Positions 1 through 26,328 of a stretch of DNA of 27,842 nucleotides are shown in pieces (the stretch's first letter is position 1; every line of letters begins with the position of its first letter). The stretch spans positions 1 to 27,842 of the IMG/VR virus record IMGVR_UViG_3300021368_002180; one strand, given 5' to 3'. The stretch comes from a virus. The notes beneath the pieces are model-generated. The model was not told the origin of the DNA and searched no databases. It saw only the letters and a program-made list of their open reading frames with translations. The position numbers were made by a program, and so were the translations under genes.

Positions 1-3000
1 GCTAGTACCTCTGTTAATAAATGTTGGGTTAGCTAGTGCGCCATTACCAATTTTTGCATTAAGAACAACATCTTCAATATTACCAGGGTCTGTAACTGTA
101 ATAGTTGGTGCAGTGCCTTCGTATCCACTGCCTGGTTCTTGCATTCTAACTTCGAATATTTTTTCATTTGCAACACTTGCTCTACCTAGTGCAGGTGCAC
201 CTCTGTAAATAACTTTAGCAGTATTTGATGTGTCATCTATACTACAGAATCTACCAATTGGTGTTGATGCTCCAACAGTGTGTGGGTTACCAAATGCAAC
301 TTTTTCTCCAATGTCTGCAAGTCCAGTTACATCTGTCCATGTTACACCATCAAAAGATTCAGCAATTTTTGTTTCAATTGAACTGTAAGTTACAACAAAT
401 ACACCTTGTCCATATGCAAGTCCGCTTGGTGTTGCAGTTGCATCTGGAGTGCTTGCCGCCACCCAATTTGTTCCGTCTATACTGTATGCCATATTGTTGG
501 CGCCTGTATCACTTGATAGTGCTACAAAAATACCATTACCCCAAGCAACATCAATCCATGTTTTACTATTTGGTAGTGTTACTTGTGTCCAAGTTTCACC
601 GTCTGTTGATATAGCACCTGCGGCCTGGCCGCTTCTTAGAGCAACATACAATCCTTTACCATATGTTAAACATGAGTATCCTGTTCCTCCTGGAAGCACA
701 GTAGCAACATTAGTCCATGTAGCACCTGAATCTGTTGAGTATTCAATATCTGTGTCGTTGTTTGATATTGCAACAAATTTATTTGTGCCTGCACCTAAAT
801 AACCGTATGCTACACTCATCACAGTACCAGCTGTTAGTGAAAGTGTTCCAGTACCCCAAGTAGTCAATGTTTCATCTGTAGACCTATCAACTGTTGTTGA
901 GCTTGGTCTTGTTGCAACAACTGCATGTGGTTTGAATGTTGTTGAACCGTCATTTTGTAATCCGCTTGCTAGTTTTTGGTGGTTACCTGTTACAGTTCTA
1001 TTTGTCCAAGTTGCTCCACCATCTACACTGATATAGAAGTTTCCGTCTGCAAGCGCAGTAAAGTAACCCTTGCGTCCAATACCTGCAAAATCGAAATCAA
1101 CTACAGCACCATTTGCATTTACTGTTGTAATTGTAACTGTAATATCGTTATCAGGAGTTGCACCTCCTACGCTAGTTCCTAGTATTGTTACAGTGTCTAG
1201 TCTAGTAAATTCTTGTCCTGTGGCATTTACAGTTACATAGTATTTTGCACCATTACGTGTAACATCAAATGTTGCACCACTACCATCGCTGTTTGATACA
1301 CTTGCAACACCTGTGTACTGTGCTGATGTTTCAACAAATTCAATGTCGTTAAATGTATCTGTTGCAATTACATTAGATGCATCTGCTGTATTGTTAGGAG
1401 CAGGAATAGTAATTCTTGGTTCAACTACATATGTTGAACTACTGTTAGGAGCAACAATTGTTGTACCTGGTACAACATGGCTCCATCCTGAATTGCCATA
1501 TCTATCACTAACGTTTGCAAGTTTGGAACCTGAATTGTAACTTGTGATATAACCGTAGTTACCAGTAGCCGCACCACCTGTAATATAAATTGCCATACCA
1601 ACATAAGCACTAGACAAACTACCATCTGTAGCCGCTAAGTTAATACTTGTAAGTGAACCTGCTTGAGCTGTGTTACTTACAACAGTATAGTTTGTACCAC
1701 CAGCGTTACTTGGAGATTCTACAGTTTCACCGATTTCAATCCTATGAATAGCTCCATCTCTAAATTCGTCTGCTAAAAGTGCTTCACCTGTACCAGCACC
1801 AAATATGTTAATATTTGCTTCAGTATAATCGTTACCAGCATGTGAGTATTCTAGTCTTAACAATTGATCTGTATCTGTAAACACATTAGAAATTGTTGCG
1901 TTATACTGAGTTGAGTTATCAACAATAGCTGTTACTGGAATTTCTTCTGGATCAACACCTTCAGCTACTGAACCAAATGTACCATATGAGTTGTTACCGT
2001 TAGTTGCACGAGCTCTACCACCTGTTTCACACAAGTAACCAATATGTGAGTAGTACGTAAACACTGACACAAGTTCTGCCCTACCGTTGTTTAACAACCA
2101 TGCACCAATACCATCTGATATTACTTGTGTAAAGTCGTTTGAAACAATAGAGTCATTACCACCGTCGTGTAATGCACCATCAATTTTTTGTCCAACAGCC
2201 GCATAACCAAATGTTGATACGTTTTGTACGTATGGAGAACGTGCAGTAATCCAAACTCTTTCATCTTTAGGACCCCAACCTGGATCAAGTGAAGCGTATG
2301 CTCCTGCTGTTGGTCTACGTGTGCCGAAAGCGTTTTCTGATCCTAGATCTCCTTGTAGTCCATCTAAAGATTGTAATCTTAATCCTGTACCATTTCTTAG
2401 ATAGTACATGTCTTCTTCTTGTGAACCTAACACACTATTTGCATAGTATCTTGCGCCTAGTGCTGATCTATACCAACCTGTGTAATCCATTTCTGTATCT
2501 GTTCTATCGTCTACATTCAATGGAGCTGGATAATTTGTTTTCCAGTTTCTTGAATACTGTGCGTCCCACTTCATTGCATAGACATATTCTCTTACATCTC
2601 TTGCACAAAGGGTTCTGTTAAATGCATAAGTGCTACGAACTTGAACTAGTGCCGCGTAAGTGTTATCAAGATATCTTACTGCCTGCACCGTGATATGATC
2701 AGTTTCGTTGTTAATTTGAATTTGTGCTGATCTTAAATCTGCGTTGGCAAAATTTACATCTGGATATGTTGCCGCTGGTAGTCCTGATAAACTTCCTGCT
2801 GAAATAATATCTTCAATGATTTGTAAATTTGTTTGTGCTAAAGTACCTTCAGTTGCAGTGGCCGCTGTGCCTGATGTATCTTGTGTAGCGGCATTACCAG
2901 TACTTTTAGTAACCGATGTCTCTTGGATAACTTGGCTTGCTACTGTTGCTAGTCTATCAAATGCACCTACTGTTGCTGTTTGTTCTGCACCACTGTATCT

Positions 3001-6000
3001 TGCTGTACCGCTTATGACATAATTTCTTGCTTGTGCAACACTTGCACTTGTACCACCGTACATGATGTCGTAACATAGTGCATCAACTGCATAAAGTATT
3101 TCGTTTTGATGCTCAGTTGTCCAGGTCACTCCGCCATGATTAACTGCAACCCATGCTGTAATTTCTGCGCCTAAAAACGCTCTGTTTGCAATCAATTGAG
3201 CTACTGCATTTTGATTATTAGTTGAAGTAGTAGCTGGTACTGGGAATGTTAATGCATCTGCATTTCCTAATCCATTATTTAAAATATCTACTATTTCTGT
3301 AAATGCCGCATTTGCTCTTGATAAGCCTGTTGTGCTTGTTCTTACTTTGTAAAGTTCAGCTACTCTTGCTTTAACAAAGTTTATACCAGCTGTAGTTTGT
3401 GTAAGTTGACTACCTGTAACAACACTTGAATAACTTTGTCTATACAAGTTACCATTAGTAACTGCATTATAGTTTGTACCTAATGCAACATCATAACCTA
3501 CACCTTCTAAGATGTATCCGTAATCTCTACGACATTTTTCTTTATTGTATTGGAAAGCAGATTGTGTTGGATCAAATGCAAAACCAGCACCATTTACACT
3601 TGTGCTTACTGTGAAAGTCGTATCACTTACAATTTCTTTAACATAAAAATCTGTTTCTGTTGTTGTACCAATTTCTGCAACTGCACTAGCACTATCATCG
3701 TAGTTAAAGAATCTTACATTCATATTAGGTGTAAGCCAACTAGTGTCTGCAACATGAACAGTTCCGTCTGCTTCCACTTTTGAAACAGCCGCTCTATAAC
3801 ATTCATCTGCTTCATTAAGTGCTTCTTGTACTAACCATTCTTTGTTAGTTTCTAGCTGATAGTTTGAATTGTATATTTCTGGATCTGCAACTTGCTTGTT
3901 AGCACCTTCATGGCTTGCTGTCCAAATAATATCGTTTATCCATTCTAATGTTTCGTCTAACTGTCTAGAGGTGAATTCTTGTTCACTACTTAACTTCTGC
4001 TTCATTTGCTTCATTGCAAATTTGTTAGCCGCTATAGTTGCGTCTTTTTGATCGCCTAATACCTTAGAACTTCCTGCTCTTCTATAACTGTATGCATTAA
4101 CAATACTTGCGTAGTTTGTATCAAGCATAGCATCATAACGTGCCGCATCAAATATTAAACCTAAATCTCTTGTGCATTTTGCATGATTAAATTTAAAGTC
4201 GCTGTATGTATCAGTTACATATTGCAGTGTTGTTGCAACAATGCTATCTCTGTTAGAATCAAACAGTGCGTAGTCAGTAGCGGTTTGTCCTGTTTCTGTG
4301 CTTGTAACTTCAGTAGTTGCTGTAATACCTGTAGATACACCTGCATTAATAGCGTTGATACTTTCAGTTAAGAATGTGTTAACTTGTGTTGCTTCAGTTG
4401 CACTTGCAGGTGATCCTGCTGTGCTTTGTGTTTGTGTATTACCTGTCTGCTTAGTAACTGCTTGTTCTTGTACAATTTGTTGGCAAATGCTTGACATGTG
4501 TGTAAGTGCGCCAGCATATTGAGTAGTCTCACCAGTTATGATAATTGCTTCTTTATCTGTACCTGGAAGTTCAAAGAAACTTTTTGCTGTTCTTGTTTGC
4601 GCTATGTTGCCGCCGTACATGATATCAAATGCCATACCTTCTACAGCATCGCCAACATATTTTCTTAATCTATCTGCACTGTATACAAAACTACCTGGGG
4701 GGTTGTTGTAAGTATTTTCTACATATTGTATTACATCGTCTTCGATAAACACTTTGTTTGCAGTTAAGTTAGTCATTGCATCTTGTTTATCTTGTGCTGA
4801 ATTGTATGAAGGATAACTTGCTGAGTCAGCCGCATTTCTACCATTTTGAATAATATCAATAACTTCATTAAAGAAACTACGTGTTCTAGTGATATAAGTT
4901 GTATCAGTTAAATCGTCAATGATTTCATCTCTTGCTTTTCTAATCGCGCCAACTGTTTGTGTTTTTTGTGCGCCTAGTAAGTAAGCACTTGTGCCTCTTT
5001 GATACGCTCTACCTGCTTGTAATGCTAGATAGTTTGAACCAGTAAGCACATCATTTTGTGCTCCTTCAAATAATGTTTCTAAATCTCTTCGGCAAATACC
5101 TGAATCATATTTAAAGCTACCAAAGTTTAGGTTTATAAAGTCAATTGTATCTTTACCAACTTGTGCTTTGTTTGTATCTATAGCATTTGAATCTGCGAAT
5201 GTAAGTGCGTTTGTATTTGCAACGCTAGGATAAACAATTGATACAGTGCCTATACCATTGTCAATTATATCAATAATATCATCAAACAAATTACCAATTG
5301 TAGTTGATTCACTTGCGGTTCCACCTGTGCCAGCAATCTGAGCAACGTCAGTTTGTAATAAAGGAGTAACAGTAATGTTACGCTGTACAGTTTGCACCAA
5401 CTGCTTTAAGAAAGCATATGCCGCTAAAGTTGCCGCTTTGGAGTCTGCAGGAATGTTTAATTGTGTTCCTGTATAATATGCTTCGCCTGCAATAACACTT
5501 TGCCAGTTACCACCATATGTTAAATCGTATGCAACTGCGTCTAGTAAAAATCCAATATCTTGCTTACATTTAGTTCTTCCATAATATAGATTTGGATAGT
5601 TTGCGTTGATGTATGCTGTTGTTTCTGCTTTAATAAATTCTCTGTTGAGTAAAAATAGATCACGACCTCTACCAGCATTAGTGTTTGTCATATTCCATGC
5701 TTTTGGTAGTTCTGCATAAAGTTTTTCACCTAGTTGTGCATCTATGCTTCTTCTTATACCACGCATTTGACGAGTAACACCTTCCCATACTTGCGGAGTT
5801 TCAGCGTATGGATATGCTACTGTTTGAGTAAGTGTGTTTCCAGTTGTAGGAGTCATTGTTAAACCGGCGGATACGTTACCTACAACTTTTTCTAATCTTT
5901 CAAGAGCTTTGCTTGTGTATTTGTAATCACTTCTTGCAGTTAATGTGCTGTTTGTTGACTTACGTGGTTGTACATTTACTGCACGTAATTCGTCTCCCAT

Positions 6001-6174
6001 AATACAACATTCTGCTGGAACAATAATTGGAAGAACTTCTCTATATTGTCCTGTTGCAACTTTAATAAGTGTTTTTCTTATACTTCTTGCAGGAATATCA
6101 TTACTATTACCTGCTGTTACAGCATCAGTTATTATCTTTCCTAGATCCTGTATTGTTTCATATACCGTAGCCAT
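1..6174 (-). CDS. Giant modular virion/tail-fibre-like protein (3' end beyond window)
   Basis: The frame stays open from the ATG at 6174 to base 1 (2058 codons), and the stop lies outside the window. The ATG shares its A with the stop of the upstream 747-aa gene (TAATG), so translation is probably coupled. Residues about 30-70 form a beta-helix-type entry (motif MGDELRA). About 200-1220 carry alpha-helical repeats with a CxRDxG...YDxxxGxNY signature (Cys near 203, 361, 667, 881 and 1190; variants without the Cys near 505 and 1025). A beta-helix follows (ARSPYVQNV near 1309, RAELVSVFTYY near 1366). Then comes a beta-propeller near 1704-1964 with at least five Asp-box-like blades, two canonical (SVDGGATW, STDSGATW). 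From residue about 1220 on it parallels the 1859-aa protein; by that alignment about 320 residues are missing. A host-adhesion or fibre role is inferred from architecture; no enzyme motif was recognised. Confidence 0.85.
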   Translation of the reverse strand, partial: MATVYETIQDLGKIITDAVTAGNSNDIPARSIRKTLIKVATGQYREVLPIIVPAECCIMGDELRAVNVQPRKSTNSTLTARSDYKYTSKALERLEKVVGNVSAGLTMTPTTGNTLTQTVAYPYAETPQVWEGVTRQMRGIRRSIDAQLGEKLYAELPKAWNMTNTNAGRGRDLFLLNREFIKAETTAYINANYPNLYYGRTKCKQDIGFLLDAVAYDLTYGGNWQSVIAGEAYYTGTQLNIPADSKAATLAAYAFLKQLVQTVQRNITVTPLLQTDVAQIAGTGGTASESTTIGNLFDDIIDIIDNGIGTVSIVYPSVANTNALTFADSNAIDTNKAQVGKDTIDFINLNFGSFKYDSGICRRDLETLFEGAQNDVLTGSNYLALQAGRAYQRGTSAYLLGAQKTQTVGAIRKARDEIIDDLTDTTYITRTRSFFNEVIDIIQNGRNAADSASYPSYNSAQDKQDAMTNLTANKVFIEDDVIQYVENTYNNPPGSFVYSADRLRKYVGDAVEGMAFDIMYGGNIAQTRTAKSFFELPGTDKEAIIITGETTQYAGALTHMSSICQQIVQEQAVTKQTGNTQTQSTAGSPASATEATQVNTFLTESINAINAGVSTGITATTEVTSTETGQTATDYALFDSNRDSIVATTLQYVTDTYSDFKFNHAKCTRDLGLIFDAARYDAMLDTNYASIVNAYSYRRAGSSKVLGDQKDATIAANKFAMKQMKQKLSSEQEFTSRQLDETLEWINDIIWTASHEGANKQVADPEIYNSNYQLETNKEWLVQEALNEADECYRAAVSKVEADGTVHVADTSWLTPNMNVRFFNYDDSASAVAEIGTTTETDFYVKEIVSDTTFTVSTSVNGAGFAFDPTQSAFQYNKEKCRRDYGYILEGVGYDVALGTNYNAVTNGNLYRQSYSSVVTGSQLTQTTAGINFVKARVAELYKVRTSTTGLSRANAAFTEIVDILNNGLGNADALTFPVPATTSTNNQNAVAQLIANRAFLGAEITAWVAVNHGGVTWTTEHQNEILYAVDALCYDIMYGGTSASVAQARNYVISGTARYSGAEQTATVGAFDRLATVASQVIQETSVTKSTGNAATQDTSGTAATATEGTLAQTNLQIIEDIISAGSLSGLPAATYPDVNFANADLRSAQIQINNETDHITVQAVRYLDNTYAALVQVRSTYAFNRTLCARDVREYVYAMKWDAQYSRNWKTNYPAPLNVDDRTDTEMDYTGWYRSALGARYYANSVLGSQEEDMYYLRNGTGLRLQSLDGLQGDLGSENAFGTRRPTAGAYASLDPGWGPKDERVWITARSPYVQNVSTFGYAAVGQKIDGALHDGGNDSIVSNDFTQVISDGIGAWLLNNGRAELVSVFTYYSHIGYLCETGGRARATNGNNSYGTFGSVAEGVDPEEIPVTAIVDNSTQYNATISNVFTDTDQLLRLEYSHAGNDYTEANINIFGAGTGEALLADEFRDGAIHRIEIGETVESPSNAGGTNYTVVSNTAQAGSLTSINLAATDGSLSSAYVGMAIYITGGAATGNYGYITSYNSGSKLANVSDRYGNSGWSHVVPGTTIVAPNSSSTYVVEPRITIPAPNNTADASNVIATDTFNDIEFVETSAQYTGVASVSNSDGSGATFDVTRNGAKYYVTVNATGQEFTRLDTVTILGTSVGGATPDNDITVTITTVNANGAVVDFDFAGIGRKGYFTALADGNFYISVDGGATWTNRTVTGNHQKLASGLQNDGSTTFKPHAVVATRPSSTTVDRSTDETLTTWGTGTLSLTAGTVMSVAYGYLGAGTNKFVAISNNDTDIEYSTDSGATWTNVATVLPGGTGYSCLTYGKGLYVALRSGQAAGAISTDGETWTQVTLPNSKTWIDVAWGNGIFVALSSDTGANNMAYSIDGTNWVAASTPDATATPSGLAYGQGVFVVTYSSIETKIAESFDGVTWTDVTGLADIGEKVAFGNPHTVGASTPIGRFCSIDDTSNTAKVIYRGAPALGRASVANEKIFEVRMQEPGSGYEGTAPTITVTDPGNIEDVVLNAKIGNGALANPTFINRGTS

Positions 6175-8417
6175 TAATAGCCTCCTCCGCCTGGGTTATA
6201 ACCGCCACCTGGTGTTTGATCAGAGTAAGTACCTCCTGAACTACTTCCACTGATTTGACCCTCATACTCAACAGCGTCTTGAGCTCCTAGTGCCGTTTCG
6301 AAATATTGTGGTACAACTCTAGTTGAGTTGTCTCCGTTTGTTGTTTGATAATTTACAGCAGGTGCCTGTTGTGCAAGAACCTTTTGTATTAAGCTAATAC
6401 CGTAGTTAATACTTGCTACAGTTTCAGCTTCTTGTCCTAATGTATAAAATTTGCCTGGATTAGTAACATATTCTAGAGCCGCTTCCCTTGATTTTATATT
6501 ACCACCATGTGCTAAATCATAAATAAATGCATCAATGATGTATCCCATATCTCTTTCACATTTCTTTGAATCATATGTAAAACTTGTTGTAAAAGGTGAT
6601 ACGTTATTTGCAACTTGATACTCTGTCCATTCTACTATTTCTCTTTGAATAAATCTTCTATTCATTTCTAGTAGACGTCTTGCGTCTGGTGCTTTTGTAC
6701 CGCGCTCAACTTGCATTGCGGCATACCTAATAGACTTAAATGGTCTATCTAAACTTTTTCCATATATAGGTGCAGGATTGTCTGTTCCGTGCTCGGCAAC
6801 GTGATATACATCAACGCTTTTACCTAAGAACTCCCAATTTGGAACTCCATTTGGGCTAACAGTTAAAACTTGTCCATCTTGTCCTACTGGTAATCTAACT
6901 GGCGCCGCGCCGCTGTAATAAACCATGTCACCTTTTGTAGTAAGCACACTTTGTTCTGTACCAATTGCAATAACATTCCAGTATGTTCCTGCGGTATCTA
7001 GATCCGGTCTTGAATTAGCCGCAGATACTCCGCCTGTGTTATCTGGATCACCTGATGATCCGTCATCACCTTCTGAAATATGTCCTTGCACACAAACGTA
7101 GCTATTGTCACCGTAACGAACAGTATCACCTAAATAGTACTCCTGATCATCTAACCATGTACCTCTCCAACTAAATCCTGTGTTAAGTTTTTGCCAATAT
7201 GTTGTGTTTGGTGGCTGTTTACTATTGTGTCCTGTAATACAACGATATGTGTAACCACCTAATCTTACTACATCTCCAGGTAGATATTGTTCATTTGTAC
7301 TATCTGCCTCGTAGTCTCCTTTGAATCTTAAACCTTTGGTAAACAAGCTCCATTCAGATATATCATCTTCGTTAATTACAAAACTACCACCTGATGTGTA
7401 TGCTCCAAATGTTGTAGTGTTTACTACAGCAGTTAATGCACTATCAGTGTATAATTGGAATGTGTTGGCTGTTATTGCACCTACATAGTATTTGTTATTG
7501 TTTAGTTCTGTAGTTCCAACTACACCTGTAATTAAAATTCTTGCACCGTTGTAAAGCTCATGTAATGCACTTGTTATCACGCCTGGATTAGCATTTGTTA
7601 TTCCTGTTATATCGCCTCCGATAACTCCTGGCTTAACTCCTGTATTATCTTCTCTAGCAATATAATTATTGCCGCCAAATTCTACCACGTCACCTGGTTG
7701 ATATCCTCTAGTAGGCATCCATCCGTTTTCGTATTGAAATCCTTCAACAAACTTTGTCCACTTAGAACTATCAGCGGCAAATGTTGCCTGTGAAGTATGA
7801 TAGGTATTTACAATCCATAAACTTGCACCAAATTTAACTACATCATTTACTTTATATCTATATCCTGATGCCCAGTCACCTAGCCAATCAAATCCTTGAT
7901 TAAAAATTGTCCATTTAGATTGATCAGCTTCTAAACCTAATGTATCAGTTGCCGCAGATATATGATATGTGTTACACACATATGTTGAACCGCCATACTT
8001 AACTAAGTCGTTTGCTTTGTAATCAAATGTAGTAGACCAAGCGCCTTTGTAATCTAATCCTGTAGCAAATACTTCCCATTTAGCAATGTCTGGCTCTAAG
8101 CCTGTGCTTGAATCAACAGCAGATGTATGATCTGTTTTACAAATATAAACAGTAGCGCCGTAACGAACAATGTTATCTCTAATATAAGCTGTCTGTGGTT
8201 GCCAGTCGCCTATCCATTTTTGTCCATCACTAACTAAGTTCCATTTGGTAGGAACTACATCTAAATCTGTGAAGAAAGCCGCAGAACTGTCATGTCCAAT
8301 TACACAAATATATAATTTGCCGCCGTATTCAACAACGTCATCTTTATAGTATGTTGTAGCTGTTGTCCAACTGCTTTTCCATACAAATCTAATTCTACCT
8401 AACTTAAATTCTGCCAT
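6174..8417 (-). CDS. 747-aa virion protein with seven carbohydrate-binding-like repeats
   Basis: Residues 8 to about 485 hold seven repeats of roughly 50-75 aa with the pattern W-x-Y-x-GDxVxYGGxxYxC-x-H-S...W. This resembles the short beta-sandwich chitin/carbohydrate-binding modules (CBM5/12-like) found in phage fibres. Repeat 5 carries a beta-rich insertion at about 272-350. A TTKGD linker follows near 491, then a beta-helix entry near 537 (RPFKSIRYAA), one helical CxRDxG...YD unit near 620, and a glycine-rich tail over the last 20 residues (ending GGGGY). The start is supported by GGAG eight bases upstream and a late-type promoter at 8435-8443. Its stop overlaps the start of the giant gene. 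It matches the N-terminal third of the 1859-aa protein, so it probably works with the giant protein. Function is inferred, not shown. Confidence 0.85.
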   Translation of the reverse strand: MAEFKLGRIRFVWKSSWTTATTYYKDDVVEYGGKLYICVIGHDSSAAFFTDLDVVPTKWNLVSDGQKWIGDWQPQTAYIRDNIVRYGATVYICKTDHTSAVDSSTGLEPDIAKWEVFATGLDYKGAWSTTFDYKANDLVKYGGSTYVCNTYHISAATDTLGLEADQSKWTIFNQGFDWLGDWASGYRYKVNDVVKFGASLWIVNTYHTSQATFAADSSKWTKFVEGFQYENGWMPTRGYQPGDVVEFGGNNYIAREDNTGVKPGVIGGDITGITNANPGVITSALHELYNGARILITGVVGTTELNNNKYYVGAITANTFQLYTDSALTAVVNTTTFGAYTSGGSFVINEDDISEWSLFTKGLRFKGDYEADSTNEQYLPGDVVRLGGYTYRCITGHNSKQPPNTTYWQKLNTGFSWRGTWLDDQEYYLGDTVRYGDNSYVCVQGHISEGDDGSSGDPDNTGGVSAANSRPDLDTAGTYWNVIAIGTEQSVLTTKGDMVYYSGAAPVRLPVGQDGQVLTVSPNGVPNWEFLGKSVDVYHVAEHGTDNPAPIYGKSLDRPFKSIRYAAMQVERGTKAPDARRLLEMNRRFIQREIVEWTEYQVANNVSPFTTSFTYDSKKCERDMGYIIDAFIYDLAHGGNIKSREAALEYVTNPGKFYTLGQEAETVASINYGISLIQKVLAQQAPAVNYQTTNGDNSTRVVPQYFETALGAQDAVEYEGQISGSSSGGTYSDQTPGGGYNPGGGGY

Positions 8418-8434
8418 TTATTTGCTCCGTTACT

Positions 8435-8443
8435 GTATTTATC
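8435..8443 (-). promoter_or_regulatory. T4-type late promoter (GATAAATAC)
   Basis: On the minus strand this reads GATAAATAC, matching the T4 late consensus TATAAATA at seven of eight positions. It lies in the 36-bp gap between the stop of the 1859-aa gene and the ATG of the 747-aa gene, giving a leader of about 12-15 nt. The same octamer core recurs before three other genes in the window. It would drive the 747-aa and giant genes together. Confidence 0.7.
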
Positions 8444-8453
8444 TGATTGTTCA

Positions 8454-11400
8454 TTAACTTGATCCACCTTGAACTTCAGGAACGTATTCCATTGTAATTA
8501 ACATTTGACTTAGTATTGTTCCTGAAATTCCTGTTAAATTGTTATTAGCATCTTTACCACTGAAGTCTACCACTCTATTAAAATATAAGTACGTATCGTC
8601 TGTCATACTTATTTCGTTTGTGTCTGTACCAATTTTAACTCTACCAGCAACAATTCCGTTGGCTTCTAGATCTGAACCACCAACTGACAGTCTATCTGCT
8701 AAGAATGTTGCAATAGCTTTTTGTGTTGGTACAATATTGTTGCTATCTGCACTAAATGTTGGATCTGTACTAAATTCGTTAATAACAGCTCCTGATCCAC
8801 CTAATCTCACACCACCTAATGATAGCTGACTAAGTCCATCTAAGTCAAAGAATTCAGCACTAATTGTAACAATACCTGTTGCCTGTTGCACACTAAATAA
8901 TTCTCCAGCTCTAAAGTTACCATCTTGGTCTGTACTTACATAAAACACTCTACCACCATTAAGTTCTTCAACTTCGTTTTCTGGTGCACTTGTAAAGTAT
9001 CTTCCGCCTGCATATAAATCAGGATAGTTTGTTTCTATAAAATTTCCTGTACCTATGTCTAGGAAATCATGTCCTGTAATTCTACATTGACTATATCCAC
9101 TTCTTAGAGTTGCGGCTGTTCCATGACGCATGTTATTCTCATTACGTAATCTTGGACTAATAGTAAATCTAACTTTTCTAGATCCTGTGCCACTACCATC
9201 ATCTCCAAGATCAGTAATTTTAACTCCTGTATAAAGTTTTAAATCATCTGGATCTTCTGTTTCTACATCAGGCAATGTTGAAAATCTAATTTGCACTCCT
9301 GGGCCTGGTACTATTGCAACACCATCTAAAACAACGTCGTTCGTTTCTGGAATTATATCAGCGTATCCATCTCCACTAATAGTAATTGTTGAACTAGATG
9401 TTCTATAGCCTGCACCTCTGTCAATAAAATCAGGTTGTGACAATACCCCGTCACCATAGCGCATTTCTATTTCTAAGGGTACAACAAATGTTGTATCTGT
9501 GATAGTTAATGCACAAGGATTAGATTCCGAATATCCACTACCTGGGTCCCATATAATAATTTTTCTAAATGCACCTTGGAACACATCAGCTTTGAATCTT
9601 GCTTGTTTACCTGTGGTAACTCTTGCAGTTGCATTAGATGTTGTTTGATCTCCTAGAACCACAAATGTTCCAACATTGCTAAAGTTTCCTGGAGCAATTG
9701 TGCTATACAATCTAGCATTATTGTTAAGATTACGTTCAGTCCAAATTAAACCGTCTTCTGTTGTAGCACATCTATCTATTTCATCTTGCGATGGTTGTGG
9801 AGCACCAGTTCCGGGAACTGATTGATCTCCTACTGCCATAAACACACCTTGCAAATATCTGAAGTCTTTTACATGTAAATCTACTCCTCCTAATTGAGGG
9901 ATGCTTGTGCCTGTTTTAAATGTTGTACCTTTATCTAGAGAATATAATGTTGTTCCATCTGTTGTTACAGCAATAAATCTGTTGTCACCGTATGCTAGTC
10001 CTGCAAAGTCATAATCACCTGCAGGTAGACTATTCAAATATAATATCCAGCTTACACCATCAGCAGTTCTTGCTGATTGATTTCCACTACCTGATATACA
10101 AACAAATCTTCCTTGTCCGTAAGTAATTTTTTGCCATTGAGCTGTAGTAGAGTCATCGCTATCAGGTATAGTGCCGGCTGTCCAGTTTAATCCATCTGTA
10201 CTGTATACAACATTGTTGCTTCCTTCAGCTATCATAATAAATCGACCATTACCATATGCAATATCAACCCAGTTATCTGTGGTCGGAATACTTCTAGTAA
10301 TCCAATTTTCTCCGTCATATGAAAAACTTACAGTGTTGGTATTATTCGATATAGCCACCCATGCATCTTCACCTGCTACAACTTTCCTAAAATCTCCTAT
10401 GTAACTCATGTTACCTTCCACCCAAGCTATGCCATCATCTGAGTAAGCACTAAAGTTAGGATCTGCAATTGCAACCATACGCTTGCCTCTAGGTGTTCCT
10501 GAGCTACTAAATGTAAGAATAGCATTTGTACTATCATCTGAAACTGTAAGCACAGTAATAGTTAAATCATTAGCTGGTGATGTGCCTCCTAACAGTGTTC
10601 CTAAAACAGTAAATGTATCACCTACAGCATATCCAGCACCAGACACAGTTTTTGTAAGATTATAGTTTTGTCCTTTTCTTTGGATATTAAATCTTGCAGG
10701 AATTGGATCGTCATCAAATGTATCTCCAGTTCCGTTACTAATTGCAATGTTAGTATAATCCACAGTTTGGTAACCCCAGTCTGCACCTCTCCATTCTCTA
10801 GCCGCAGGAACATCTCCGTTTACAGCAACAAATCCTGGATGTGTGGATGCTATCCTTGGTTCTATTCTATAATTAGTTGTGGAATCAAAATCTGCAACTA
10901 AGTCGGTACCTGGGATAATATGATCCCAACCTGCTGTGTTATCTGACTCTTTAGCTACTGTGGTATCTCTAGTAATAACATCAAATCCTGTAATATATGC
11001 ATACTGTCCTGCACCTCTACCCGATGTTATAATGATACGCATTCCGTTAATATCTGATAAAAATTGTGTAGGATCGTTTGTGTTTAATCTAATTGTACTT
11101 GTTGCATCTACTGTTATTTGTGCAGAGTTTGCATTTACTTTAAATCCACTTCCGCCTTCTGAGCCAGAACCTTTTGTGTTTATTAGTCTAGGCTCAAATA
11201 CTCCGCCATCTCTAAAATCTGTGTATTCAATATCTGCATCATCACCTGCTCCTGTAATAACCGCATCAGCTGATGTATATTTTTCTCCGCAATTTTCGTA
11301 TTGAAAAACAAATAATTCGTCTGATGTACCACCAGCAAATGCACTGTCTACTAGTGCTTCGTTTTCTCTATTGTTCACAGTGACAGCATCTGGAGTTTCC

Positions 11401-14033
11401 AAAGGATCGTTTCCGTCTGATACCGATCCAAAACTTCCGTATGAGTTATTACCATTTGTTGCACGTATTACTCCGCCATTTTCAGCTAGATATCCAACCG
11501 CACAATAGTATGTAAACACTGACACAAGTTCTGCTCTAGCATTGTTTGTAATATAAGCACCAATACCATCACTTAGAACTTGTGTAAAATCGTTTGATGT
11601 CATTGATTTATTTCCGCCGTTATGTAAAGAACCGTCAACAACTTTTCCATAACAGCGTGTGCCGATATTTGTAACACCTTGTATATATGGAGATCTTTTC
11701 ATAATCCACATACGATTATCATCAGGACCCCACCCTGGATCAAGTGCAACACAAGCACCGCCTGTTGGACGCTGATAAATGTCGTATACACCTGGAGGGT
11801 TAAGTCCGCCTGATAATCCTTCAATTGTGCAGTTTCTTAATCCTGTGGTATCTCTGCAATAGAACATATCAGTAGTTGTTGACCCTGTTACTGCTCTTGC
11901 ATACCTATCCGCGGCCTTAAGTGTACCGTAGTTTCCAGGATATTCCAAATCTCTTATCATTGCACGAATGAAACTTTGTATATCATTTCTAATGCGAACT
12001 AAGTCTCCTGTAAAATTAGGAAACACATTTGAGATATAAGCAAAACAATCCTGTACAATAAACTCTTTATTTTGATTAATAATTGCCGCCGAATTTGTTA
12101 GACCAGAGTCAGAAGTTTTTGTATTAGTTCCTGTTATTGTTGGATTTGTATCTCCACTTTGTGAAAGATACAAGACCCTATCTTTATAAGTTTGGAATTG
12201 AGTTGACATGAATACAAATGCATCATTTGATCCTGCAGGCAGTGTACGCTTTTGTTCAAACGTATTTCCAGCTGAAACGACAACCGGTATATTTTGCACT
12301 AAATTCTGTGAAAGTGTTATAAATCTCTGTAATATGCTTGTATGGAAAGTATAATCGTCTTGATATTCTGTTCTAGGTCCTGTTGCAGTAATTGTAGTTG
12401 CTCTAAGTTCATCACCCATTACAACACATCCTGCTGGAATACTAATTGGCCCTATTTCCTCAAAATTACCTGCGGCTACTGCAACTTTAGTTGGTACTAG
12501 AGGATCAAAGTTATCTTCAATCCATTCGCAAGCGTGTCTAATTGTTCTAAATGGATTTTCCCATTCTCTACCATAACCTTCTTCATCTTTACCATTTGTT
12601 GCAACATATACAACTTGGCTTTCGTAATCTCTGTTACGCCAGAATATTTCTTGATCTGCTGTAACGCTAAGTATTTGGTTTTGCTCACCAATTCCTAATC
12701 TTCCATCACCTAATGAACTGTCATCTTCATAGTTATCAAATCTAAAATAATCATATGTAAGCAAATCACCTTTGGTTGTTAATGCCGCAGAACGTCCTGC
12801 CTGAACATTAAGATCCCAATAATTATATAAATCAACTGCTAAGTCGCCGGGCGCGGTAGGATAAGAACTTGTGTGTTCAAAATTACAAGTATAAGAACTA
12901 CCTAAATGATAGACTACATCACCTCTGCTATAAAGCTCACCTGTTGCCCATTGGCCGATCCATCTTTGCCCTTTTGCTATTAGGTTCCAAACTTCTGGAT
13001 CTACATCCGTTGCTGAACTATCATCACCGTCTTGTAAGTTTATATCTCTTACAGCTTCATATAAAAATCCACCTCTTTGTACAATATCACCTGTTTGATA
13101 TTTTCCTGATAAACTCCAGTCTCCTGCAAAGTCATTTGTTTTTGCAAGTATTTGCCAATTTCTTGTAGAATCTCCGCCTACAGCTTCTTTGATCACATTT
13201 CCATTTGCATCTATTGTGGACACAAATCCTGGTTGGCTATCCAAATTAGTGGCTACAGCACTATATATAAATCCGCCATAGCGGACAATATCACCTATAG
13301 AATAAACAATGCTCGAATCCCAAGTATTTTTAAAACTAGTACCTGTAAATCTTATGCTAAACTCGGTTGTAGATATTTGTGTGCCAGTTGAAGTGTGACT
13401 TGTTATGCATTCGTATATAGCACCACCAAAACTTACAAGATCGTTTTTTCTATAAATTGTTGCTGTTGCCCAAGCACCTTTCCATTCTATACCTGGATGA
13501 AACAAGTCCCAACAATTATCTGAAGGACTAGTAAAAATGTTGTCTTCTAATTTGGATCCAGCACTGTGCGCTTTAACACAACGATACACATTACCGCTAT
13601 ATTTTACAAGTGCGCCTTCACCATAATCTAAACCACTTACCCAATCACCTACAAAGTCTATTCCGTCAACAAAGTCTTCCCAATAGTTACTTTGCGCTCC
13701 AAAACTTGTTGCAGTATGAGGAACTGTACATAAGTGTAAAGTACCTTGATAAAATACTAATTCACCAGGTGCATAATCTTCTCCAGGTGTGTATGCTCCG
13801 CTGAAAGTTTTACCACTTACCATTACAATCCAGTATGGATCAGGTTGTGGAGGATTTGATCCAGGCAGTATTCTAGCGGCTTCATTGGCAAAGTTTGATG
13901 AACTTGTGTGTGCAGTTATACAAACATAACTTTTACCACCGTTATAAACAATATCATCTTTTTTGTATACAGTGCTTTCTTGCCATTCGCCTCGCCAGTT
14001 GTACTTAAACCTATCTAATCTAAATTCTGCCAT
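8454..14033 (-). CDS. 1859-aa modular virion protein: CBM-like repeats, beta-helix, beta-propeller
   Basis: Domains in order: seven CBM-like repeats (about 1-415; e.g. YKKDDIVYNGGKSYVC); a TTKGDLL linker (about 420); a beta-helix entry (about 475-540, GCVVMGDELRA); one diverged helical unit; the beta-helix core (RSPYIQGV near 780, RAELVSVFTYY near 834); a spacer with GWDHIIPG (about 1034); a beta-propeller (about 1182-1465) with six or seven blades of the type aYGnGrF...YSTDGLNWT; and a C-terminal region with NFRAGELFSVQQATG near 1704, a module shared with the 1265- and 1131-aa proteins. No signal peptide or membrane segment is evident. The start follows the previous stop by one base, with AGGA upstream. 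This build suits a tail fibre or surface adhesin. It is paralogous to the 747-aa plus giant pair. The exact role is unknown. Confidence 0.87.
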   Translation of the reverse strand: MAEFRLDRFKYNWRGEWQESTVYKKDDIVYNGGKSYVCITAHTSSSNFANEAARILPGSNPPQPDPYWIVMVSGKTFSGAYTPGEDYAPGELVFYQGTLHLCTVPHTATSFGAQSNYWEDFVDGIDFVGDWVSGLDYGEGALVKYSGNVYRCVKAHSAGSKLEDNIFTSPSDNCWDLFHPGIEWKGAWATATIYRKNDLVSFGGAIYECITSHTSTGTQISTTEFSIRFTGTSFKNTWDSSIVYSIGDIVRYGGFIYSAVATNLDSQPGFVSTIDANGNVIKEAVGGDSTRNWQILAKTNDFAGDWSLSGKYQTGDIVQRGGFLYEAVRDINLQDGDDSSATDVDPEVWNLIAKGQRWIGQWATGELYSRGDVVYHLGSSYTCNFEHTSSYPTAPGDLAVDLYNYWDLNVQAGRSAALTTKGDLLTYDYFRFDNYEDDSSLGDGRLGIGEQNQILSVTADQEIFWRNRDYESQVVYVATNGKDEEGYGREWENPFRTIRHACEWIEDNFDPLVPTKVAVAAGNFEEIGPISIPAGCVVMGDELRATTITATGPRTEYQDDYTFHTSILQRFITLSQNLVQNIPVVVSAGNTFEQKRTLPAGSNDAFVFMSTQFQTYKDRVLYLSQSGDTNPTITGTNTKTSDSGLTNSAAIINQNKEFIVQDCFAYISNVFPNFTGDLVRIRNDIQSFIRAMIRDLEYPGNYGTLKAADRYARAVTGSTTTDMFYCRDTTGLRNCTIEGLSGGLNPPGVYDIYQRPTGGACVALDPGWGPDDNRMWIMKRSPYIQGVTNIGTRCYGKVVDGSLHNGGNKSMTSNDFTQVLSDGIGAYITNNARAELVSVFTYYCAVGYLAENGGVIRATNGNNSYGSFGSVSDGNDPLETPDAVTVNNRENEALVDSAFAGGTSDELFVFQYENCGEKYTSADAVITGAGDDADIEYTDFRDGGVFEPRLINTKGSGSEGGSGFKVNANSAQITVDATSTIRLNTNDPTQFLSDINGMRIIITSGRGAGQYAYITGFDVITRDTTVAKESDNTAGWDHIIPGTDLVADFDSTTNYRIEPRIASTHPGFVAVNGDVPAAREWRGADWGYQTVDYTNIAISNGTGDTFDDDPIPARFNIQRKGQNYNLTKTVSGAGYAVGDTFTVLGTLLGGTSPANDLTITVLTVSDDSTNAILTFSSSGTPRGKRMVAIADPNFSAYSDDGIAWVEGNMSYIGDFRKVVAGEDAWVAISNNTNTVSFSYDGENWITRSIPTTDNWVDIAYGNGRFIMIAEGSNNVVYSTDGLNWTAGTIPDSDDSTTAQWQKITYGQGRFVCISGSGNQSARTADGVSWILYLNSLPAGDYDFAGLAYGDNRFIAVTTDGTTLYSLDKGTTFKTGTSIPQLGGVDLHVKDFRYLQGVFMAVGDQSVPGTGAPQPSQDEIDRCATTEDGLIWTERNLNNNARLYSTIAPGNFSNVGTFVVLGDQTTSNATARVTTGKQARFKADVFQGAFRKIIIWDPGSGYSESNPCALTITDTTFVVPLEIEMRYGDGVLSQPDFIDRGAGYRTSSSTITISGDGYADIIPETNDVVLDGVAIVPGPGVQIRFSTLPDVETEDPDDLKLYTGVKITDLGDDGSGTGSRKVRFTISPRLRNENNMRHGTAATLRSGYSQCRITGHDFLDIGTGNFIETNYPDLYAGGRYFTSAPENEVEELNGGRVFYVSTDQDGNFRAGELFSVQQATGIVTISAEFFDLDGLSQLSLGGVRLGGSGAVINEFSTDPTFSADSNNIVPTQKAIATFLADRLSVGGSDLEANGIVAGRVKIGTDTNEISMTDDTYLYFNRVVDFSGKDANNNLTGISGTILSQMLITMEYVPEVQGGSS

Positions 14034-25155: not shown

Positions 25156-26328
25156 TTAGCTGAAGCTTACGTTACCGTTTGTGATAGCAACGTTAGCTAG
25201 ATAGTCAGCCGCGTTACCTAGTGACGAAGCTGTGTTTGATAGCTCAACATATCCGTAACGAGTCATAAATGATACGACTGGTTCGAATGATGTTGGATCT
25301 AGTACAACACCGCTTGACATTAGTGGGATGTATGGGCAATAGAACGCTGCCGCGTCTGATTCGCTTGATCCCTTGTAACCAACAATTACGTTTGCGCCGT
25401 CGCCAGCATATGTGTTTACGTACACTTTCATTGCATTGTTCAATGTACCAACCATTTTAGTGTTAGTTGGAGCTTCGAACGAACCTTCTGTTGTACGTGC
25501 AAATGCTGATGTTGTAGCAGACTGTAGAATTGTTAGCGCAAGTGGGCTAACAACTGCCCAGTTACCAGCGCCTCTACGTGTACGCTGAGCGATTAGGTTA
25601 GCCGCTCTGTTGATTTGAACTGCTAATGCCGCATGTTCGTCACCAACGAAAGTTGCTGTACCAGATACCGCTGCCTGGTCATATGTTTCTACTGCTGTAC
25701 CAGCAAGTGTATTTAGAGATGCTAGGACCTCTTGGTCGATCTCAGCAGTAATCTCTTGAGCCAAAGCGGCCATGATTTCTGCTTCTACATCGATACCATG
25801 CTGTGACTGTGCGTCCTGAGCTGACTCAAAAGTCCAACGTGCTGATAGCTTACGTGATTTAGCTTCAACAGTTTGCTTTAGAATCTGGATGCTTAGTCTG
25901 TTACCTGCTGAACCTTCACGAGCGGCAGTTGCTTCTGCTGTTCCGCCTGTTGCACCTGAATATGCTTCAGCAATTTTGAATGGTGAAAGTGCTTCTTCAC
26001 CTGCTACTGCACCGCTGGCGCCTGAGCCAACTGTATCTGAGTAGCGTACTCTTAGTGTGTGGATTTGACCCACTGGACCTGTCATCGGTTGTACACCAAC
26101 TAGCTCGTTTGCTATAACTGTTGGCATTACACGTCTGATAACGGGTAGGATAACACGATTAAGTGTTGCGACATTACCGGCAGATGTTGCGCCTGCTGTT
26201 GCAGTCTCTGACAAATACTTGCGAGTATTTTCAAGAGTAGCTGCCATTACAGATTTCTTTGTGCCTTGTAGGCCTTCAAGAAGTGCGCTTTTTGTATCTT
26301 GCCAGCGACTTTCTAGTAGTTCTGACAT
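25156..26328 (-). CDS. gp23: Major capsid protein gp23
   Basis: This is the shell protein of the T4-like head, HK97-type fold. The start MSELLESRWQ, ATLNRVILPVIRRVMPTVIA, GVQPMTGPVGQIHTLRVRY, the AEIDQEVL region, AQRTRRGAGNWAVVSP, FYCPYIPLMSS and the ending RYGYVELSNTASS are all typical of gp23 from T4-like marine phages. Length is 390 aa against 521 in T4, so T4's extra inserted domain is probably absent. LSE at residues 39-41 fits the gp21 cleavage pattern (L/I-x-E), giving a mature protein starting about residue 42. AAGGAGA lies upstream, 10 bp after gp22, and a strong terminator follows. The gene order 21-22-23 confirms the call. Confidence 0.96.
   Translation of the reverse strand: MSELLESRWQDTKSALLEGLQGTKKSVMAATLENTRKYLSETATAGATSAGNVATLNRVILPVIRRVMPTVIANELVGVQPMTGPVGQIHTLRVRYSDTVGSGASGAVAGEEALSPFKIAEAYSGATGGTAEATAAREGSAGNRLSIQILKQTVEAKSRKLSARWTFESAQDAQSQHGIDVEAEIMAALAQEITAEIDQEVLASLNTLAGTAVETYDQAAVSGTATFVGDEHAALAVQINRAANLIAQRTRRGAGNWAVVSPLALTILQSATTSAFARTTEGSFEAPTNTKMVGTLNNAMKVYVNTYAGDGANVIVGYKGSSESDAAAFYCPYIPLMSSGVVLDPTSFEPVVSFMTRYGYVELSNTASSLGNAADYLANVAITNGNVSFS

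Follow-up and report, generated by a model that had tools for sequence, protein, structure and literature searches.

A predicted tail-fibre arm split over two genes beside its single-chain paralogue in an uncultured marine virus, with helical repeats related to phycobiliproteins

RESULTS

Organization of the locus

The DNA analysed here, referred to as the window, is an IMG/VR virus record of 27.8 kb from an uncultured marine virus of bacteria. Its structural genes lie on the minus strand and include P1, P2 and P3 (Table 1). P1 consists, in this order, of six CBM_5_12 repeats, a linker with the sequence TTKGD, a beta-helix entry, a degenerate helical unit of the phycobilisome family, a beta-helix core and a C-terminal half. 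P2 carries six CBM_5_12 repeats, the linker, the first strand and helix of the beta-helix cap, one phycobilisome-family unit and a Gly-rich tail. The giant chain P3 starts with the last helix of the split unit, followed by the entry strand with MGDELRA, seven further units, the beta-helix core and the C-terminal half; it is incomplete at the window end, and its complete relatives (L003 and L006) have 2340-2346 aa and a P1-type C-terminus.

P1 and P2 match CBM family 5/12 (PF02839) in six stretches each, scoring 126.1 and 119.6 bits where the cut-off is 26.2, and carbohydrate binding by these repeats is predicted from the Pfam match. The match to the tail fibre family PHROG 9851 is strong for P1 and P2 and weak for P3, and this family annotation is the basis for regarding the three as putative fibre proteins. 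In the region that a preliminary description of this DNA had labelled 'propeller', no Pfam match was found. Within the CBM array of P2, residues 282-346 (7380-7574, minus strand) form an insert with a weak match to E1_FCCH (E 1.2e-5, below the cut-off). Part of the 'tail tubular protein B' of Pelagibacter podoviruses and a protein of Vibrio phage MZH0603 are 40-48% identical to this insert.

Table 1. Positions of the fibre genes and their parts in the window
Feature	Position	Strand	Basis or remark
P1, 1859-aa single-chain fibre (putative)	8454..14033	-	ORF list, Pfam, relatives
P1 degenerate unit (RIRND, no Cys)	11838..12113	-	
P2, 747-aa N-chain of split arm	6174..8417	-	ORF list, Pfam, alignment to P1
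P2 linker and first part of beta-helix cap (TTKGD to SIRYAAMQVE)	6705..6941	-	aligned to P1 419-508
P2 phycobilisome-family (globin-like) unit	6348..6704	-	HMM E 2.5e-38; motif CERDMGY at residue 620
P2 Gly-rich tail (EGQISGSSSGG...GGGGY)	6177..6263	-	variable among relatives
Joint: GGAGG Shine-Dalgarno within last Gly codons and TAA/ATG one-base overlap	6174..6196	-	
P3, giant C-chain, 2058+ aa, incomplete at window end	1..6174	-	ORF list, relatives, alignments
P3 residues 1-34, helix VYETIQDLGKIITDAVTAG	6073..6174	-	unit's last helix in fused homologues
P3 residues 35-69, beta-helix entry strand to MGDELRAVNVQ	5968..6072	-	aligned to P1 515-549
P3 unit 1 (CKQD)	5356..5688	-	unit HMM E 5.7e-36
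P3 unit 2 (CRRD)	4885..5211	-	
P3 unit 3 (motif lost)	4444..4800	-	
P3 unit 4 (CTRD)	3967..4296	-	
P3 unit 5 (CRRD)	3325..3666	-	
P3 unit 6 (motif lost)	2899..3228	-	
P3 unit 7 (CARD), runs into beta-helix core	2371..2748	-	

P2 and P3 as the two halves of a paralogue of P1

The preliminary description had proposed that the 747-aa and giant genes are a split copy of the 1859-aa gene, and our alignments bear this out. P1 and P2 align over their N-terminal repeats with 159 bits. P1 and P3 align over the entire distal half with 405 bits (332 of 1039 residues identical), and an additional match of 72 bits begins at the entry strand. With hhalign, the P2 linker falls on P1 419-508 (E 8.8e-21) and P3 35-69 on P1 515-549 (E 5.8e-18), so that the N-terminus of the giant does show homology to P1 in the range of residues 500-600 and the two chains cover consecutive stretches of P1 with a gap of about six residues. 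The landmarks agree, TTKGD being found at residue 419 of P1 and 493 of P2, and GDELRA at residue 540 of P1 and 60 of P3. Judged from these alignments, P2 and P3 are two halves of one paralogue of the P1 gene. P1 and P2+P3 are thus tandem paralogous tail-fibre arms, one made of a single chain and the other of two.

Where P1 has its short loop, the second arm carries a helical module, the Gly-rich tail, a stop and a start, and then P3 residues 1-34. Because the loop of P1 has only about six residues, the cut lies inside an insertion that is absent from P1 at this position and is no plain cut of a P1-like chain. Two details of the preliminary description have to be adjusted accordingly. It let the giant begin at the beta-helix entry; MGDELRA is indeed located at residue 60 of P3, but the first strand and helix (VYHVAEHG...SIRYAAMQVE) belong to P2. 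It also described P2 as repeats and linker followed by the Gly-rich tail, which holds for those parts but overlooks a helical module of about 120 residues (572-690) that is homologous to the seven modules of P3.

The helical units belong to the phycobilisome family

A Foldseek search with the long fused model gave the first pointer to phycobiliproteins, the light-harvesting proteins of cyanobacteria. A profile of 34 units yielded 31 matches in the PDB at E up to 10, all of them phycobiliproteins (best E 0.0097), and in these matches the Cys of the unit falls on that of the CxRD motif. PF00502 matches 7 of the 34 units (best 6e-6) and exceeds the curated threshold in two phage records, and the phycocyanin, phycoerythrin and allophycocyanin models of NCBIfam match units weakly. 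In hhalign comparisons with 40 cyanobacterial phycobiliproteins we obtained 95.0% and 95.9% (E 3.7e-8 and 5.9e-9) over about 100 columns, compared to at most 0.6% for shuffled controls and 0.1% for a beta-helix profile. The top 50 Foldseek matches of a single-unit model are all phycobiliproteins or their relatives (probability 0.98-1.00, best E 0.005, TM about 0.43-0.67). PF00502 gave no match above the Pfam cut-off on P1, P2 and P3 of the window, so that the assignment of these units rests on the family profile and the fold. Our data indicate that the helical module is a distant globin of the phycobilisome family (PF00502-like). In eight cyanobacterial genomes the unit profile found no match at E 0.01, a search without positive control that shows little; the similarity thus remains remote.

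Split and fused second arms among relatives

As the preliminary description had suggested, relatives were surveyed for fused and split forms; they were drawn from IMG/VR and dereplicated at 98% identity for the trees. Both forms were found, the second arm being split in 33 loci and fused in 41 (17 and 21 after dereplication). P1 is one chain in 56 of 56 loci, consistent with the proposed pairing of a single-chain arm with a two-chain paralogue. The break point is identical in every split locus, and the P2 and P3 genes are always adjacent, overlapping or nearly so. Fused second arms (L008, L022, L060, L073 and others) have the same order of parts in one chain of 2256-3108 aa and sit beside an intact P1, as expected of the orthologous fused form. 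No surveyed locus contains both a separate N-chain and a fused giant. Giants that carry their own CBM repeats, which the preliminary description had held to speak against a split, do exist in a literal sense; they are the fused homologues and represent precisely the fused form that a split predicts.

Split N-chains end in ..STxxVxQYxxxxLGxQ..[Gly-rich]GGY and split C-chains begin with MAT..., most commonly as MATIFETI..LxxIVTDAITAG. An example of the fused sequence across the same place is ..QYFDANLTVESVYTEITGLTKIITDAITAG. Instead of the Gly tail, stop and restart, the fused chains have a short helical linker (e.g. DANLTVESVYTEI).

The preliminary description had also argued that the split is not decay. 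Comparing the window with relatives gave dN/dS values of about 0.02-0.2 wherever the two halves could be scored, the 34 residues that follow the new start among them; the values are 0.02-0.07 for LINK and up to 0.09 for ENTRY. Such strong purifying selection on both halves argues against decay, and by this pattern the split is conserved and functional. An assembly artefact is likewise hard to reconcile with an identical architecture that recurs across many metagenomes, in 33 loci that dereplicate to 17. Nothing but the stop codon itself points to decay or artefact, and we regard this explanation as practically negligible.

Trees were calculated for the region before the joint (N-side) and the region beyond it (C-side), with the joint columns left out of both. 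A single clade of split forms is rejected with AU p values of 1e-4 (C-side) and 5e-4 (N-side). The fused L073, together with its near-copy L079, nests inside the split clade in both trees, and when it is removed from the C-side tree, one split clade is not rejected (AU p 0.34). In a first N-side tree, calculated with the joint columns included, L073 fell outside this clade; it nested once these were left out. The joint peptide of L073 resembles that of other fused forms and the rest of its gene is closest to the split L069 and L070, so that exchange of the joint probably accounts for its return to the fused state. The simplest history is a single split followed by a single return to fusion. 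Given where L073 nests, more than one split, or recombination that swapped the joint, would also fit. The contigs of L073 and L079 stem from different metagenomes. L067 groups with the fused L060, L063 and L071 on the N-side and with the split clade on the C-side, which suggests recombination in its CBM part.

The Gly-rich tail encodes a ribosome-binding site

The preliminary description correctly located the meeting point of P2 and P3 at TAATG. The join reads GGCGGAGGAGGCTATTAATGG, the TAA stop and the ATG start sharing one base. GGAGG precedes the P3-type start at 17 of 17 dereplicated junctions, with a spacer of 4-10 nt in 16 of them. GGA makes up 33 of the 49 Gly codons at the last four positions, compared to 77 of 246 within the gene bodies. 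What stays constant in the tail is its end, GG(G)Y-TAA, which thus encodes the ribosome-binding site of the giant, while the remainder varies in length and sequence. From these signals, P2 and P3 are predicted to be arranged for coupled translation.

These results bear on the role of the tail, through which the preliminary description had suggested that a designed joint might run. In favour of a dedicated joint or clamp, all split N-chains end in GGY, and the Gly richness exceeds the codons that a ribosome-binding site needs. However, length and sequence of the tail are variable, and the GGA excess in its last Gly codons is what encoding of GGAGG would produce; since these codons encode GGAGG, the constant end is explained by translation. 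Furthermore, the 145-aa gene before P1 has the same ending, GGATACTAA, and no split exists there. A clamp function of GGGGY is therefore highly improbable, and the tail may simply be a flexible end.

Some fused protein might still be produced by re-entry into the other frame or by read-through of the stop at the joint. The two ORFs of L021 and of L058 are in one frame and separated by a single TAA (stop-start offset 3), which would suit read-through. Most junctions would instead need a -1 shift at TAATG, the offset of L068 is different again, and the strong GGAGG start signal is found at every one of the 17 junctions. No slippery site was noticed in a non-systematic look. Residual fusion thus appears quite improbable.

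The break interrupts two folds

The break lies within a helical module that is inserted in the first coil of the beta-helix. Of this coil, the split arm has the first strand and helix on P2 and the next strand on P3, which also carries the unit's final helix. An uninterrupted cap is frequent in a large family of homologues with the consensus VYYVSxxGxD...PFKTIKYACxYI...PATIFIKTGxYEEILPIxVPxDVALVGDELRS. Pfam assigns DUF1565 to 16 of 23 members (best 8e-8) and Pect-lyase_RHGA_epim to 11 of 23, and the predicted pectate-lyase-like beta-helix is based on these matches to beta-helix families. A sequence search of the PDB with the beta-helix gave no meaningful match.

The AF2 model of the module from the fused homologue L022 has a pLDDT of 88 and a pTM of 0.85. 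Its helix 150-166, the part that belongs to P3 in the split form, is predicted with confidence and closes one domain. Foldseek alignments of this module extend over 155-160 columns and thus exceed the part before the break (residues 11-115), so that the helix after the break is probably included. In an AF2 model of a 1076-residue fused segment the beta-helix entry has a pLDDT below 50, and completion of the first coil therefore rests on homology. With the last helix and the next strand on the second chain, it seems likely that the halves rejoin by completing the two folds. The break inside the helical domain and the first coil is a more plausible joint than the GGGGY tail.

Alternatively, the chains might no longer join, with P2 acting as a separate CBM-bearing adhesin or baseplate cap and P3 as an independent fibre whose N-terminus is new. 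P2 does terminate in a flexible Gly-rich tail, and in the DSL-LC03 homologue the linker match begins only 97 residues into a protein of 3161 aa, which is too short for a CBM array and indicates that the N-part is modular. On the other hand, both halves keep incomplete parts of one cap under strong constraint, the genes stay together in all split loci, and the start of the giant retains the helix seen in fused forms. We consider separate chains rather unlikely.

Our preferred explanation is that the ancestral second arm would have been one chain with CBM5/12 repeats, a linker, a beta-helix interrupted by globin-like units and a distal part. In one lineage, a short Gly-rich cassette with a stop codon, a Shine-Dalgarno sequence and a new start would have cut this chain inside its first unit. 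Translation of the giant would be coupled to that of the 747-aa chain, so that both are made together. The chains would then rejoin non-covalently, the first helix of the giant completing the globin unit begun in P2 and its next strand completing the first beta-helix coil begun there, and the tail, whose codons provide the ribosome-binding site, would otherwise be a flexible end. Of this explanation we observed the homology, the unchanging position of the break, the purifying selection and the ribosome-binding site in the tail; to the whole we assign a probability of roughly 0.68.

Distribution of the units and relatives of the genome

A tblastn search with the unit consensus matched 355 phage records. 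Of these, 354 come from phages of Synechococcus or Prochlorococcus or from cyanophages, and the remaining one is from a marine single-cell virus. The unit-bearing genes in phage records are mostly annotated as baseplate wedge, tail or other structural genes. The L051 contig (G017:C1:34963-48363) contains one frame of 4962 aa with at least 20 matches to the unit profile. psbA is present in the four cyanophage isolates tested and in 0 of 17 contigs of the window's wider clade, so that a cyanobacterial host is not established. The major capsid protein of the window (25156-26328, minus strand) is closest to those of Sinorhizobium, Vibrio and Pseudomonas jumbo phages (PA5oct group), with 68-69% identity. 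The relatives of the fibres, unlike those of the capsid, are cyanophages and a pelagiphage, and the genome thus looks mosaic.

Conservation of the CxRD motif

Phycobiliproteins frequently attach their bilin via CxRD, and photoglobins have the related CxQD (PMC10151467). In 89 aligned dereplicated units, Cys is conserved in 82%, Arg in 80% and Asp in 97%, and C, R/K and D occur together in 67. The 37 units from cyanophage isolates contain Cys in 36, Asp in all and the full CxRD (or CxKD) in 25. Of the eight units of P2 and P3, five have CxRD and one has CxQD; the P1 unit is without the motif. Another Asp, eleven residues past the motif Asp, is invariant in the 89 units. It is not part of the known bilin motif, and a structural role is equally possible.

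These units, which cyanophages and this clade carry in tail and baseplate proteins, might still bind bilins and give pigmented virions, which we consider unlikely. Of 23 records, 4 contain a bilin reductase, and three of these carry no units; CpeT was found in 1 of the 23. Reductase and units occur together in a single record, which counts against a pigment role. The absence of both psbA and CpeT from all 17 contigs of the window's wider clade, and the kinship of the window's capsid protein with Sinorhizobium, Vibrio and Pseudomonas jumbo phages, also count against it. We rejected the idea that phage bilin reductases pigment the phages' own fibres: P-SSM2, S-SSM7 and Mosig have a reductase without units, and most unit carriers are without reductase. 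In S-PM2 (L307), S-CAM3 (L309) and S-MbCM7 (L304), a giant structural gene with CxRD units has cpeT within about 2 kb on its upstream side. The position of cpeT is compatible with such proximity in about eight further species, and it is far away in S-RIM2-like and P-HM2-like phages. This proximity may be inherited synteny.

DISCUSSION

Fibres of PHROG 9851 in S-CAM1, S-CAM3, P-SSM2, S-SSM7 and Mosig EXVC030M likewise consist of CBM5/12 repeats, linker, beta-helix core and C-terminus, and in S-CAM3, P-SSM2 and S-SSM7 the fibre gene is preceded by small genes of similar size, as in the window. The PHROG 9851 records examined have one gene, one chain and one arm, whereas the window has two arms, the second of which is split and laden with helical units. 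The T4 proteins gp34, gp35, gp36 and gp37 build one fibre from several gene products. In T4 the borders between chains lie between domains; here, the border is inside a domain and the fused form is extant in relatives. Fission of the fibre gene is a variation on known gene fission, and the two-chain arm itself is conserved. A fission inside a domain, an extant fused form and one apparent return together provide a natural experiment on the assembly of giant fibres.

The larger surprise is that the helical repeats are related to phycobiliproteins and have kept the bilin-attachment motif. Phycobiliproteins and bilin-binding globins (PF00502; BBAGs, PMC10151467) have the globin-like fold in common with the phage units, with similarity in sequence and structure, and their bilin-attachment Cys is aligned with the CxRD of the units. 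The phage units differ in being short repeated domains of structural proteins with a near-invariant extra Asp. We found no earlier report of phycobilisome domains in phage tails, of PF00502 in phages or of such a fission, in a search that barely covered subscription journals. As far as searched, the phycobilisome-family identity of the repeats is unreported, and it is the more surprising part compared to the fission.

If the units do bind bilins, a virion pigment could serve light sensing, structural stabilisation or protection. Such a pigment would also give CpeT, the bilin lyase encoded by phages, a target in the virion, and the same would hold for the bilin reductases that some phages have. 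The role of the phage pcyA and pebS genes has been called 'a mystery' (PMC3037559). Although the co-occurrence of the genes is not simple, a domain of the bilin-binding type in the virion renders one answer to this question testable.
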